A stretch of 49,345 nt of DNA from Methylococcales bacterium. GTDB lineage: Bacteria; Pseudomonadota; Gammaproteobacteria; Methylococcales; Methylomonadaceae. Below, in pieces: positions 7,892-12,294 of this stretch; position 1 is the stretch's first letter, and the number at the start of each line of letters is the position of its first letter. The stretch is from the NCBI GenBank assembly GCA_003584895.1, contig QVQF01000069.1:1-49345 (forward strand), given 5' to 3'. Below the pieces are notes generated by a model that saw nothing but the letters and a program-made list of their open reading frames with translations, did no database searches and had not been told where the DNA came from. A program made the translations under genes and the position numbers.

Positions 7892-8335
7892 ATGAGCAGC
7901 TATAAACATATTTTGTTGGCAGTGGATTTTTATGAAAACTGTTCCGCCGTTAATCAAAGAGCAAAAGATTTAGCTCTTAAGTATCAGGCCAAACTGAGCA
8001 TTATTCATGTAGTGGATAATTTGCCACTAACCGATACCGGTTATGGAGCAGAAATACCCTTTAACATAGACTTTACGACAGAACTCATTGCTAATGCAAA
8101 AAAACAACTGGCAAGACTGGGTGAAGAACTAACTATCAAAGAAGACCAGCAATGGCTGGAAATGGGCAGTCCAAAAACCGAAATAATTCGGGTTGCAGAA
8201 GAAAACAAGGTGGATTTAATAGTCGTCGGCTCTCATGGCCGCCATGGCTGGGCTTTATTGCTGGGCTCAACCGCTAACGGAGTAATCCATCACGCAATCT
8301 GTGATGTGTTAGCTGTACGTTTACAAGAAAATTAA
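7892..8335 (+). CDS. universal stress protein, UspA family
   Basis: The 147-residue single-domain Usp protein opens KHILLAVDFYEN and ends with the phosphate-binding loop VGSHGRHGWALLLGSTANGV. The loop is G-x2-G-x8-GS, one residue shorter than the usual ATP-binding G-x2-G-x9-G(S/T), so nucleotide binding cannot be assumed. Usp proteins are cytoplasmic dimers induced by growth arrest and stress. The gene stands alone, 127 nt after yheS and 74 nt before the TM2 gene. Confidence 0.88.
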   Translation: MSSYKHILLAVDFYENCSAVNQRAKDLALKYQAKLSIIHVVDNLPLTDTGYGAEIPFNIDFTTELIANAKKQLARLGEELTIKEDQQWLEMGSPKTEIIRVAEENKVDLIVVGSHGRHGWALLLGSTANGVIHHAICDVLAVRLQEN

Positions 8336-8409: not shown

Positions 8410-8823
8410 ATGATAGGTTATATTGAAAGCTTCCATCCTGACAACCAAACAGGAACCATCAAAACTGAAACAGAGACTTATACCTTTCATTTAGACGATT
8501 GGGTTGCACAAGTACCGCCCGATATTGGTGATGATGTCACCTTTGAAAACGATGAAACTGCTGCGCGAAAAATTGATTTGGTGGGGGCATATTTAGCAGC
8601 GCCTACAGCCGTTAAACGAAAATATGTGGCTGTAGCATTAGCACTATTTCTAGGTTTTACTGGGATGCATCGATTTTATTTAGGCTATTACAAGCTGGGG
8701 CTCGCTCAGTTAGCATTGACTGCTGCTACCGTTGGCTATGGTGCACTTTGGGGCTTTATAGAAGTTATATTACTTCTCGCAGGCCATATCAATAAAGACG
8801 CTAAGGGTCGTCCTTTAAAATAA
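8410..8823 (+). CDS. OB/cold-shock-like domain fused to a TM2 membrane domain
   Basis: The 137-residue protein has two parts. Residues 1-58 (MIGYIESFHPDNQTGTI, then YTFHLDDW and DIGDDVTFEND) follow the strand pattern of a cold-shock or OB domain but lack the aromatic RNP1 and RNP2 motifs. Residues 70-137 form a TM2 domain: KRKYVAVALALFLGFTGMHR, FYLGYYKLGLAQL, then a second hydrophobic helix. The protein faces the cold-shock gene at 8899-9102 across a shared terminator. Function is unknown; the N-terminal domain could place a nucleic-acid or ligand sensor at the membrane. Confidence 0.75.
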   Translation: MIGYIESFHPDNQTGTIKTETETYTFHLDDWVAQVPPDIGDDVTFENDETAARKIDLVGAYLAAPTAVKRKYVAVALALFLGFTGMHRFYLGYYKLGLAQLALTAATVGYGALWGFIEVILLLAGHINKDAKGRPLK

Positions 8824-9230: not shown

Positions 9231-9641
9231 TTATTGAAAGGTTTTATACAAACCATCAAGCACCAAAGAGTTAGGACTCACCATACCAACTACCTTTTTG
9301 TTTTCCAGAACAGGCGCTCTCACCAAATTATAATTAGCAAACAATCGTGAGCAATAGCGAATATCCATATCAGGATGCACAGAGATAACGGGCTTATTCA
9401 TTATTTCATAAACATTAACACGATCTGGAGCACGATCTTTAGCTAAAACATGGCGAGCAATATCACCAGACGTTAACATGCCATATTCATCATCTTCATT
9501 ACGCTTATTAACAATAAGCACCGCAGTTTTTAGTGTCTTCATTTTAATCAAGGCATCAGCGACCGTAGCGACACCTTCAATGGTTCCAAAATCGGTTTTC
9601 ATTACATCTTTGACACGAATTAAGGTGTTATTTGTGATCAT
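9231..9641 (-). CDS. CBS-pair domain protein
   Basis: The 136-residue protein is made only of two CBS motifs: residues 10-60 (VKDVMKTDFGTIEGVATVAD and the TSGDIARHVL edge) and 74-134 (NVYEIMNKPVISVHPDMDI to GMVSPNSLV). CBS pairs bind adenine nucleotides and gate attached or partner proteins. Its start overlaps the P-II-like gene by 4 nt, so it belongs to the DUF1538 operon. It is the last gene of that operon and probably a nucleotide-responsive regulator of the transporter. Confidence 0.88.
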   Translation of the reverse strand: MITNNTLIRVKDVMKTDFGTIEGVATVADALIKMKTLKTAVLIVNKRNEDDEYGMLTSGDIARHVLAKDRAPDRVNVYEIMNKPVISVHPDMDIRYCSRLFANYNLVRAPVLENKKVVGMVSPNSLVLDGLYKTFQ

Positions 9642-9988
9642 ATTGTATCCTCAAGTTCTTGGGTTAGTTCTTCTACTTGGCGCATGACACCAATGGCATC
9701 TTCAACATCAACTTGAAAGGCAATGCCTGTACCGGGCTGGTTATCAAATTGTGCTACCTTGGCAATTTTTTCTAATATATGTCGACTGAGATGTTCTTCA
9801 ACCAAAAACATCAGCACATCTCTGGGAGACTCTAGCGACAGTCCAAAAAATGTTTTTGATTGCTTCAAGCCTTCACCACGCGCATGATTTATAACCGTCG
9901 CGCCTTTAGCACCACTCTGACGAGCTGTATCAAGCACTAAGTCGGTTTTATCATCTTCGACAAAGGCAATAATTAATTTGAAATGCAT
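9638..9988 (-). CDS. P-II-like signalling protein
   Basis: The 116-residue protein begins MHFKLIIAFVEDDKTDLVLD, the ferredoxin-like start of P-II family trimers. It then has the GAKGATVINHARGEG segment that in GlnB precedes the T-loop. The T-loop region (KTFFGLSLESP) lacks the uridylylated Tyr context of GlnB/GlnK, so this is a P-II-like protein, not a nitrogen regulator. It lies 9 nt after a DUF1538 gene. P-II-like proteins often sit beside the transporter they gate in response to adenine nucleotides or other small ligands. Confidence 0.85.
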   Translation of the reverse strand: MHFKLIIAFVEDDKTDLVLDTARQSGAKGATVINHARGEGLKQSKTFFGLSLESPRDVLMFLVEEHLSRHILEKIAKVAQFDNQPGTGIAFQVDVEDAIGVMRQVEELTQELEDTI

Positions 9989-9997
9989 GATTTTCCT

Positions 9998-10777
9998 TTA
10001 AGTATTAGATAAGAGGCTGCGCTTACCCAGCCATTGAGCAATTTGCGCGTAAGCTAAAACAGTAATAATGGGATATAAACTGGCAAACGCAATCAAACCA
10101 AAGCCATCGATTAAGGGAGCTCGACCGGGAACAGACTCAGCCAAACCCAAGCCTAATGAGGTCACTAAAGGCACCGTCACCATAGAAGTGGTAATACTGC
10201 CTGAATCATAAGCCAAAGCAATAATTAATTTAGGTGCAAACAAGGTTTGAATGATGACTATGATATAACCTAGGATAATAAGTAAATAAAGATCAAACCC
10301 CGTAACAATGCGAAAAGTGCCTAAGGCTAAGCCTATGGCTACCCCTATCGCAACAGAAATACGAAATCCCCAAGCACGTATCACTCCGCCAGAGGTATGT
10401 TCAACCTTAATGGCAATCGCTAATAAGGTCGGTTCGGCTAAAGCCGTAGCAAAGCCAAGGCTGGCAGCAAATAGATAAACCCAATAATAATTCTGCCAGA
10501 CCACCATCGGCAGCAAAGCGGTAATACCTAAAAACTCTGGGGTCGTCAATTGAGTAGCCATCAAACTTCCTAAAGGAAATAAAGCTAACTCCAAACCTTC
10601 AAGAAAAAAGACTATGCCGACTAATACAAAGATAAAGCCCACTAATATTTTTTTTGGATAAACTAAAGCCTTACGTATAACTAAGCTTTGGAAACCAATA
10701 ATAACAAACGCTATAGGTAAAATATTAATACATACTTCTTGTAGCTTCAGCATGATATGCAGTAACCATTCAAGCAT
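9998..10777 (-). CDS. DUF1538 membrane protein, second subunit
   Basis: The 259-residue protein has six to eight hydrophobic helices. A conserved block AYDSGSITTSMVTVPLVTSL followed by LGLAESVPGRAPLIDGFGL lies near residues 190-232. The upstream gene encodes a paralogue with the same block, and the two overlap by 8 nt (ATGCTTGA). From memory, a DUF1538 gene pair in Halomonas was reported as a two-subunit Na+(K+)/H+ antiporter named UmpAB. By that analogy this is half of a cation/proton antiporter in the inner membrane. Substrate here is unknown. Confidence 0.82.
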   Translation of the reverse strand: MLEWLLHIMLKLQEVCINILPIAFVIIGFQSLVIRKALVYPKKILVGFIFVLVGIVFFLEGLELALFPLGSLMATQLTTPEFLGITALLPMVVWQNYYWVYLFAASLGFATALAEPTLLAIAIKVEHTSGGVIRAWGFRISVAIGVAIGLALGTFRIVTGFDLYLLIILGYIIVIIQTLFAPKLIIALAYDSGSITTSMVTVPLVTSLGLGLAESVPGRAPLIDGFGLIAFASLYPIITVLAYAQIAQWLGKRSLLSNT

Positions 10778-11501
10778 AAGCTATCCCATAGACCATCACG
10801 AAAATCATGGGCATTAACGATGCAAACACCACCAAACCAAAACCATCCGAAATAGGATTTCGACCTTTAATAGCTGACGCTAAACCTACCCCTAAAGCCG
10901 TCACTAACGGCACAGTAATGGTTGACGTCGCAATACCGCCTGAATCATAAGCGATACCAATAATTTCTCGGGGTGCAAAGGGCGTTATCAAAGCAATGCC
11001 ACCGTAAGCACAGAAAACAGGGTAATAAACGGGCCAACCTTTGATAATCCTAAGCACCCCAATTAATATAGCTAAACCGACAGAAATGGCGACCGTTAAT
11101 CGTAACCCCAAGGCATAATGCGCACTAGCCATGCCTGTTGGTTCAATAATATGTTTAAGGCTAGCGCTCATGGCCGCTTTATCAGCAATAGTAACCAGTG
11201 CAGGCTCAGCAATCGCAGCAGAAAAACCCAAGCAAAATGCAAAGGCCAATAACCAGAATAAATTACCTTTTTTAGCAAAATCATAAGCCATAGTCTCGCC
11301 CAATGGCAGCAAACTTAGCTCTAAACCCTGAATAAATAAACACAATCCAAGTACAACAAAAAACAATCCCATCAATAAGCGATCAACATCGGCTATGGGT
11401 TTTCCAATCACTAACACTTGAAAAATTAATACCACGATAATTATCGGTGCCAAATCCAAAAAACTACTGACTAGTTGCTTAATAAAGCGTCTTTTTATCA
11501 T
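10770..11501 (-). CDS. DUF1538 membrane protein, first subunit
   Basis: The 243-residue polytopic protein has AYDSGGIATSTITVPLVTAL near residues 188-207 and NPISDGFGLVVFASLMP after it, matching its partner at 9998-10777. An earlier pair of motifs (LGFSAAIAEPALVTIADKA) has a helix-breaking EPAL, also paralleled in the partner (FATALAEPTLLAIAIKV). Two inverted or repeated halves are likely. It starts 33 nt after the methyltransferase, so the transcript may begin there. The order DUF1538-DUF1538-P-II-CBS suggests a regulated transporter. Confidence 0.82.
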   Translation of the reverse strand: MIKRRFIKQLVSSFLDLAPIIIVVLIFQVLVIGKPIADVDRLLMGLFFVVLGLCLFIQGLELSLLPLGETMAYDFAKKGNLFWLLAFAFCLGFSAAIAEPALVTIADKAAMSASLKHIIEPTGMASAHYALGLRLTVAISVGLAILIGVLRIIKGWPVYYPVFCAYGGIALITPFAPREIIGIAYDSGGIATSTITVPLVTALGVGLASAIKGRNPISDGFGLVVFASLMPMIFVMVYGIAYA

Positions 11502-11534: not shown

Positions 11535-12152
11535 TTACTTTCTAGCCTCAATCAATTTAAAAAAAACGCCACTATCGGCATCGATATTTACGAAAGAAAA
11601 GCCACAGGATTTGACATGCTTTATGGTGTCTCTATTAATGTTAGCAGCCATTACAACCCGCATAATTGGATTAATGAGATTCATAAACTTAGCAAGTAGC
11701 GGTCTTGAACTGACGACTTGCTCCAAAAACAAAATCTGCCCACCCGGCCTACATACACGACATAATTCTTTTAGGCTTTTTTGTGGCGATGCCACTGAAC
11801 CAAAAACAAAAGTAGCGATAACAACATCGAAGGTATTATCGGCATAACATAAGGACTGGATATCCATTAGGTTAAGCGTAACAGCAACGGCTTTTCTAGT
11901 TTTTTTATATTCAGCCTGCTTTAGCATAGCCGAACTATAATCGATCGCGGTAATTTGAGCATCAGCAGGATAATAATCAAAGTTTTTACCGGTACCAACG
12001 CCCACTTCCAAAATATGGATACCATCAACCTTAGCCCATAATTTCTTACGCCAGCGCCTGTAAAAAAAGCCTTCCATAATAGCTTGCAACCCATCAAAAT
12101 AAGGCGCGATACGATCATATCGTTGTTTAATAGCAAGACTATCAGATTTCAT
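11535..12152 (-). CDS. class I SAM-dependent methyltransferase, PmtA/UbiE-like
   Basis: The SAM-binding motif I is ILEVGVGTGKNFDYYP and motif II AQITAIDYSS. Motif III region is NTFDVVIATFVFGSVASPQK, then GGQILFLEQVVSS. The VGVGTG form and the C-terminal LINPIMRVVMAANINRDT resemble phosphatidylethanolamine N-methyltransferases of the PmtA type. The frame is open further upstream to 12281, but the domain starts with SLAIKQRYDRIAPYF, so the ATG at 12152 (205 residues) is preferred. A longer start would overlap the promoter region of divergent ribA. Substrate is unproven. Confidence 0.78.
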   Translation of the reverse strand: MKSDSLAIKQRYDRIAPYFDGLQAIMEGFFYRRWRKKLWAKVDGIHILEVGVGTGKNFDYYPADAQITAIDYSSAMLKQAEYKKTRKAVAVTLNLMDIQSLCYADNTFDVVIATFVFGSVASPQKSLKELCRVCRPGGQILFLEQVVSSRPLLAKFMNLINPIMRVVMAANINRDTIKHVKSCGFSFVNIDADSGVFFKLIEARK

Positions 12153-12294
12153 AAAGCACTTTAAAAGAAAATAGTTCACGAATATTACCGTGCAAACTAA
12201 AGCTTCATCAACATTATTATTAACTGTCATGTAAAATAGGCGAAAACGTCCACTTAAGTCAGGACGAATAAGCAACCTCACTCAACATCCCGTC

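Follow-up and report, generated by a model that had tools for sequence, protein, structure and literature searches.

UmpA and UmpB of Halomonas zhaodongensis are DUF1538 membrane proteins that, according to the main text of the paper describing them, form a heterodimer acting as a Na+(Li+,K+)/H+ antiporter (PMC5484666). The 4.2-kb clone reported there contains a truncated ORF1 and only ORF2–4 intact, and the terms P-II, PII, CBS and cystathionine are absent from the main text. GlnK-AmtB and SbtB-SbtA are presented as PII-controlled transporters in the pertinent sections of a review, where CBS pairs are said usually to sit at the C terminus of transporters (PMC10710835). Here, we describe a locus in a 49,345-nucleotide (nt) stretch of Methylococcales DNA (contig QVQF01000069.1 of a 2.6-Mb draft genome in 235 contigs; this whole stretch is referred to as the window), in which an UmpAB-like DUF1538 pair is followed by genes for a PII-like protein and a CBS-pair protein. 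DUF1538 and this PII type co-occur far beyond chance, and the arrangement is found repeatedly in Gammaproteobacteria and also outside that class. On balance, we lean toward the view that the locus encodes an UmpAB-type monovalent cation/proton antiporter of antiparallel homologous subunits with a PII-like regulator and, in this case, an additional CBS regulator.

The literature searched, which did not extend to most subscription papers or to any preprints, yielded no report linking PII or CBS to DUF1538. In the matching text of PMC7221264, the string "PII" is part of a sequence motif, and the matching passage of a paper on cable bacteria mentions UmpAB solely as a salinity trait (PMC12093952). 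Within this literature, PII-controlled transporters are known, and the DUF1538 target class and the two-sensor arrangement appear to be new.

The four-gene locus in the window

The four genes run head to tail along the minus strand in the order umpA-like, umpB-like, PII-like and CBS. The umpA-like gene (10770..11501; 243 amino acids [aa]) and the umpB-like gene (9998..10777; 259 aa) share 8 nt, 9 nt separate the latter from the PII-like gene (9638..9988; 116 aa), and the PII-like gene shares 4 nt, an ATGA overlap, with the gene for the CBS-pair (Bateman) protein (9231..9641; 136 aa). Shine-Dalgarno-like sequences can be read before the PII start (AAGGA) and the CBS start (GAGGA). These four genes, with their families, coordinates, overlaps and gap, had been proposed in the initial annotation and were confirmed by the open reading frames (ORFs) and Pfam; its statement that a DUF1538 pair had been reported as a two-subunit cation/proton antiporter in Halomonas was right, going by the main text of the UmpAB paper (PMC5484666).

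Both membrane subunits score far above the DUF1538 profile cut-off of 22.6 bits (PF07556; 211.3 bits for the umpA-like and 200.6 bits for the umpB-like product). As in Halomonas, they are adjacent paralogues with overlapping genes, one UmpA-like and one UmpB-like: the first scores 309.3 bits with the NCBIfam UmpA model and 163 with UmpB, and the second 283.1 bits with UmpB and 171.7 with UmpA. Unlike the Halomonas pair, both fall below the equivalog cut-offs of 490 (UmpA) and 500 (UmpB; NF041627 and NF041628). The UmpA cut-off was reached by none of 369 genomes sampled from the class, by none of 20 from one family and by none from two orders (20 each, one set being the same 20 genomes). The nearest named relatives of the UmpB-like protein, among the best 80 of 593 confirmed matches, come from Methylobacter and other Methylococcales. 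These 80 matches supplied the named-contig loci used below.

Co-occurrence and gene order across genomes

DUF1538 was present in 81 of 101 related genomes (the window genome included), and the PII-like profile matched the same 81; the remaining 20 lack both. In a sample of 249 genomes from the phylum, 101 hold both families, four DUF1538 only, five the PII type only and 139 neither (Fisher p 8e-58, a statistic that ignores relatedness). A class-wide sample of 369 genomes, searched with stricter limits, gave 100, 12, 3 and 254, respectively. PII profiles A4 and A8 derive from copies linked to DUF1538, and the co-occurrence counts likewise take no account of relatedness. Eight of the 12 class genomes with DUF1538 only list an open frame of at least 500 aa (the fused type described below). 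Seven of the 12 were opened (G150, G423, G449, G463, G497, G620 and G629) and all carry PII at the locus, so the strict limit had missed them; one of the three with PII only, G467, carries a weaker-scoring DUF1538 pair (L317). None of 14 control genomes gave a DUF1538 match.

Gene order was surveyed in overlapping sets of loci (L110, for example, is apparently contig G035:C11), so the sets are not to be summed. The class set held 60 loci from 60 families, one per family, and the plasmid set seven loci opened out of nine records with a match. PII was counted as a neighbor if it lay on the same strand and no more than 700 nt downstream, and six loci with too little downstream sequence were set aside (L021, L032, L041, L146, L245 and L268, the last of which has PII upstream of DUF1538 instead). 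A downstream PII gene was found in all 47 evaluable loci of relatives (out of 50), 51 of 56 phylum loci, 78 of 79 evaluable named loci and 7 of 7 plasmid loci; the class tally was 54 of 58 evaluable loci, rising to 56 after L232 and L261 were re-read. In L218, PII and CBS are 1.4 kb away. L265 has umpA by itself, and umpB-PII-CBS is on another contig of that genome (L273). The DUF1538 genes themselves are paired in 59/60 class and 79/80 named loci. The neighborhood is therefore conserved, and the co-occurrence survey for which the initial annotation had called did not yield the lack of conservation that would have spoken against a linked system.

That annotation had tied two sensors to the transporter. 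The PII-like gene held up as a near-constant partner. The CBS gene is a lineage-specific, optional second gene: where room allows, it follows in 47/47 loci of relatives, 77/78 named and 53/54 class loci, in 25/50 phylum loci and in 0/7 plasmid loci. A PII-CBS overlap of exactly 4 nt is seen in 39 of 47 loci of relatives, 18 of 25 in the phylum, 70 of 77 named and 42 of 53 in the class, counts that take the first start codon as the ORF start. In the locus of Aliamphritea spongicola (L184, 4528-6374), the umpA-, PII- and CBS-like frames are shortened and the locus is otherwise normal; it is perhaps decaying or misread.

Some loci carry a DUF1538 pair fused into one protein (495–647 aa, two cut fragments left out), and these retain PII. 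In loci with sensor genes after DUF1538, a PII-like gene comes first, and the second place is taken by CBS or a further PII, or is empty. Five Clostridial plasmid loci (Peptoclostridium, Acetoanaerobium, Subdoligranulum, Paraclostridium and Vescimonas) have a PII-PII protein of ~220 aa encoded immediately after a fused pair; Pfam independently finds PII in all three of the Clostridial proteins tested, with two stretches in two of them and one in the third. In one long-fused Pseudomonadota clade, two PII-like genes follow, the second scoring weakly. Two single loci are more elaborate: L164 has a PII-PII-CBS row, and L057 a single row of fused DUF1538 pair, PII, CBS, second PII and split DUF1538 pair. 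The only true fusions seen in 253 loci are DUF1538-DUF1538 and PII-PII, and no ORF mixes two families. Candidate UmpB-sensor fusions, long frames around umpB of up to 492 aa, were rejected because the frames were merely extended upstream.

Features of the membrane pair and the two sensors

Two acidic motifs, [AG]EP and D..GG(V)TT, occur about once per DUF1538 half (502 and 486 hits in 498 halves). An AlphaFold2 model of a fused homologue (498 aa, built from 22 sequences; predicted local distance difference test [pLDDT] 83.3, predicted TM score 0.85) has helices broken at both motifs. Together with the loop charges, the model is compatible with seven membrane spans per half, the spans being assigned by hand. 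The loop charges of UmpA and UmpB differ in a complementary fashion. An alternating-loop charge score was negative in 189 of 204 UmpA-like proteins (zero in nine, positive in six) and positive in 199 of 204 UmpB-like proteins (zero in three, negative in two); the rule for the loops was fixed with the averages already in view, and the 204 pairs are not independent. As an out-of-sample check, 27 held-out fused proteins gave a negative N-half in 25 cases (zero in two) and a positive C-half in all 27, with helix limits nevertheless taken from one of these proteins (L055). The complementary charges therefore predict opposite membrane orientations for the two subunits. Neither "topology" nor "antiparallel" is used in the main text of the 2017 UmpAB paper (PMC5484666).

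Foldseek returned no PDB match to the DUF1538 fold at E ≤0.001. In a second look, the best row was an amino-acid transporter (9hjk; Z 6.7, root-mean-square deviation [rmsd] 2.7, 56 residues aligned), and four of the top five rows were the sodium/calcium exchanger NCX_Mj (5hxc; Z 6.2, rmsd 5.8, 174 aligned). The likeness to NCX_Mj is a weak lead, and with Z below 8 it may reflect merely a common arrangement.

The PII-like protein scores 45.1 bits against a cut-off of 25 with the P-II profile (PF00543), and its AlphaFold2 model (mean pLDDT 86.1) has the PII fold, the same as that of GlnK and SbtB. Its best second-look match is GlnK1 (2j9e; Z 12.4, rmsd 2.5, 105 aligned), with SbtB structures tied (7r30; Z 11.6, rmsd 2.5, 95 aligned) and CPII among the Foldseek matches. 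It departs from canonical GlnB/GlnK in the profile alignment: the side chains at R38, K90, R101 and R103, which we take to be those contacting ATP in canonical PII proteins, are replaced, and only the B-loop glycines, the glycines at 35/37 and T29 are kept. I, V or F takes the place of K90 throughout the 14 B-loops listed as commonest, and ARGEG follows GAxGxT in 175 of 229 distinct PII-like proteins. The window protein contains neither tyrosine nor cysteine, which excludes uridylylation of a T-loop tyrosine, presumably the modified residue of canonical GlnB/GlnK. It also differs from SbtB in its partner at the locus, which is DUF1538 and not SbtA. The PII-like protein may bind another ligand, or nucleotide in a different mode.

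The CBS protein has two CBS motifs and two Pfam stretches (PF00571; 65.4 bits). By sequence, the closest protein of solved structure is CBS-CP12 (5nmu; E 3.5e-36), the alignment covering the CBS part only; the C-terminal CP12 domain is absent from the 136-aa window protein, which is a CBS pair alone. Like the CBS pairs of MgtE and MtCorB, as treated in the relevant part of the review, it may be a nucleotide-responsive regulator of transport; unlike them, it is a separate protein and stands alongside a PII-like one (PMC10710835). By eye, its two motifs read TSGD and SPNS. Among 199 distinct CBS proteins, a text pattern that did not parse all of them found T..D in 36 and L..D in 78 at the first motif, and S..D in 83 and T..D in eight at the second. 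By these patterns the motif (S/T)xxD, which we take to be the ribose motif of adenosine-nucleotide-binding CBS pairs, is often kept at one site in the family, not always. The initial annotation had both sensor families responding to adenine nucleotides or small ligands; that both respond to adenine nucleotides finds no support as stated, and "nucleotide-gated" is a weaker description because the PII-like protein does not have the usual ATP-contacting side chains and the CBS motifs are only partly kept.

A candidate regulated exchanger and its alternatives

In the mechanism we propose, two homologous DUF1538 subunits inserted in opposite orientations would form a cation/proton exchanger, the ion being assigned by analogy with the Halomonas pair. 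The PII-like protein, presumably a trimer like other PII proteins, would dock on the cytoplasmic face, and a small ligand would decide whether it blocks or opens the exchanger, comparable to GlnK on AmtB and SbtB on SbtA, from which it would differ in transporter family, ATP side chains and modified tyrosine. The CBS protein would supply a second input. That exchanger and PII-type protein are nearly always found together suggests that PII signaling controls a cation exchanger; PII control of the DUF1538 exchanger is a well-grounded hypothesis, and CBS would be a lineage-specific second input. Genomes with a rearranged locus also speak for the linkage: in G184 and G216, whose DUF1538 pair has no PII beside it, PII and CBS are neighbors at another place, and in G440, umpA is separate and umpB-PII-CBS are kept together. 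The usual account of how antiporters regulate sodium, potassium and pH is that the antiporter itself senses pH or the ion. A dedicated PII-type partner, retained in Gammaproteobacteria and Clostridia alike, would couple ion exchange to a metabolic signal and, if this is true, add a new class of transporters to those under PII control. The opposite subunit orientation is a structural prediction open to test, and a family still named "unknown function" gains a short, testable list of partners.

Since oppositely oriented subunits would expose different cytoplasmic loops, two different regulators could take one each. A more specific and tentative proposal is that the DUF1538 exchangers would be the first cation/proton antiporters under PII control, with PII on one subunit and a second sensor on the other. 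The second sensor would be CBS here and a second PII in Clostridia and in the one fused clade, so that two signals would be combined at one ion gate.

Several observations weigh against a PII-regulated antiporter. The window subunits lie below the UmpA/UmpB cut-offs, so the ion would be assigned by homology only, and the Halomonas antiporter was active in E. coli with no PII or CBS ORF listed for the clone in the main text, so such partners are dispensable there (PMC5484666). Neither a DUF1538-PII nor a PII-CBS fusion occurs in any of the 253 loci scanned. Six DUF1538 pairs have no PII beside them. The genomes of two (L081 and L082) have PII and CBS together at another place, and those of two others (L083 and L088) hold PII at other places; the genome of L104 (G345) has just weak PII matches beside ammonium-transporter-like genes (by eye), and L174 has no adjoining PII within 666 nt of room. 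PII copies of the same type also occur, mostly in one family, near genes resembling argB, SH3-domain genes and electron-transfer-flavoprotein dehydrogenase (by eye). Clusters with argB-like and SH3-like genes were seen in L079, L276, L327–L330 and L345, and in L079 the SH3-like gene and PII flank a DUF1538 pair. One further copy lies directly upstream of a cytochrome-bd-like pair (L319, 1821-3949; by eye). The idea that this PII type is exclusive to DUF1538 was rejected on account of such copies.

A rather unlikely alternative is that DUF1538 pairs mainly move cargo other than Na+ or K+, such as bicarbonate or a different small ion, that antiport in E. coli is a side activity, and that the PII-like protein is an SbtB-like sensor of carbon or energy status. 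A single DUF1538 pair has been assayed in the literature searched, as described in that paper's main text (PMC5484666). The sub-cut-off scores of the window subunits would also fit this explanation, as would the tie between SbtB and GlnK and the presence of CPII among the structure matches. The named hosts, among the best 80 matches, include Colwellia, Vibrio and Enterovibrio, which are heterotrophs and do not suggest carbon uptake. Cations are instead indicated by PII of the same type beside a different exchanger: two genomes from the window's family hold another PII next to a CPA2-type Na+/H+ exchanger, a protein carrying Na_H_Exchanger and TrkA domains (L274, 3033-5415; L275, 1216-3803). 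These are the only extra PII copies in the 101 relatives, so the association is rare, and it points toward cations. In L316 (525-3312), PII, CBS and a CPA2-like exchanger stand one after another; as the contig stops shortly upstream, DUF1538 genes may lie out of view, and the CPA2 link there is a lead only.

We consider it unlikely that the two sensor proteins, PII-like and CBS, act elsewhere, for example on each other or on metabolic enzymes, and share only their expression with the transporter, which would make the operon a case of co-regulation and not gating. Such a role would account for genomes in which PII and CBS sit together with no complete DUF1538 pair near (G184, G216 and G256; L271, L272 and L280); the first two have a DUF1538 pair without adjoining PII, and G256 has a DUF1538 fragment only. 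It would also suit the paralogues near argB-like genes in one family, argB being a known PII target. It is harder to reconcile with the phylum sample, in which 101 of 106 genomes with the PII type also hold DUF1538, and with the presence of PII after DUF1538 even on plasmids and in Clostridia. That the CBS protein is the sole regulator, with the PII-like protein a structural or assembly factor, would agree with the loss of the usual ATP side chains and is very improbable given that CBS is found in 25 of 50 phylum loci and in none of the seven plasmid loci, where PII is present.

The candidate module was taken to end at the four genes, since among ORFs of at least 90 aa in flanks of up to 5 kb, the commonest families reach only 18 of the 80 named loci. 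Upstream of umpA in the window, a methyltransferase-like gene (11535-12281, minus strand) ends 33 nt away and could share its transcript; its family is not visible among the 14 commonest neighbor families listed for the named loci. On the opposite strand near the operon, Pfam identifies a universal stress protein (7892-8335) and a TM2-domain protein (8410-8823).

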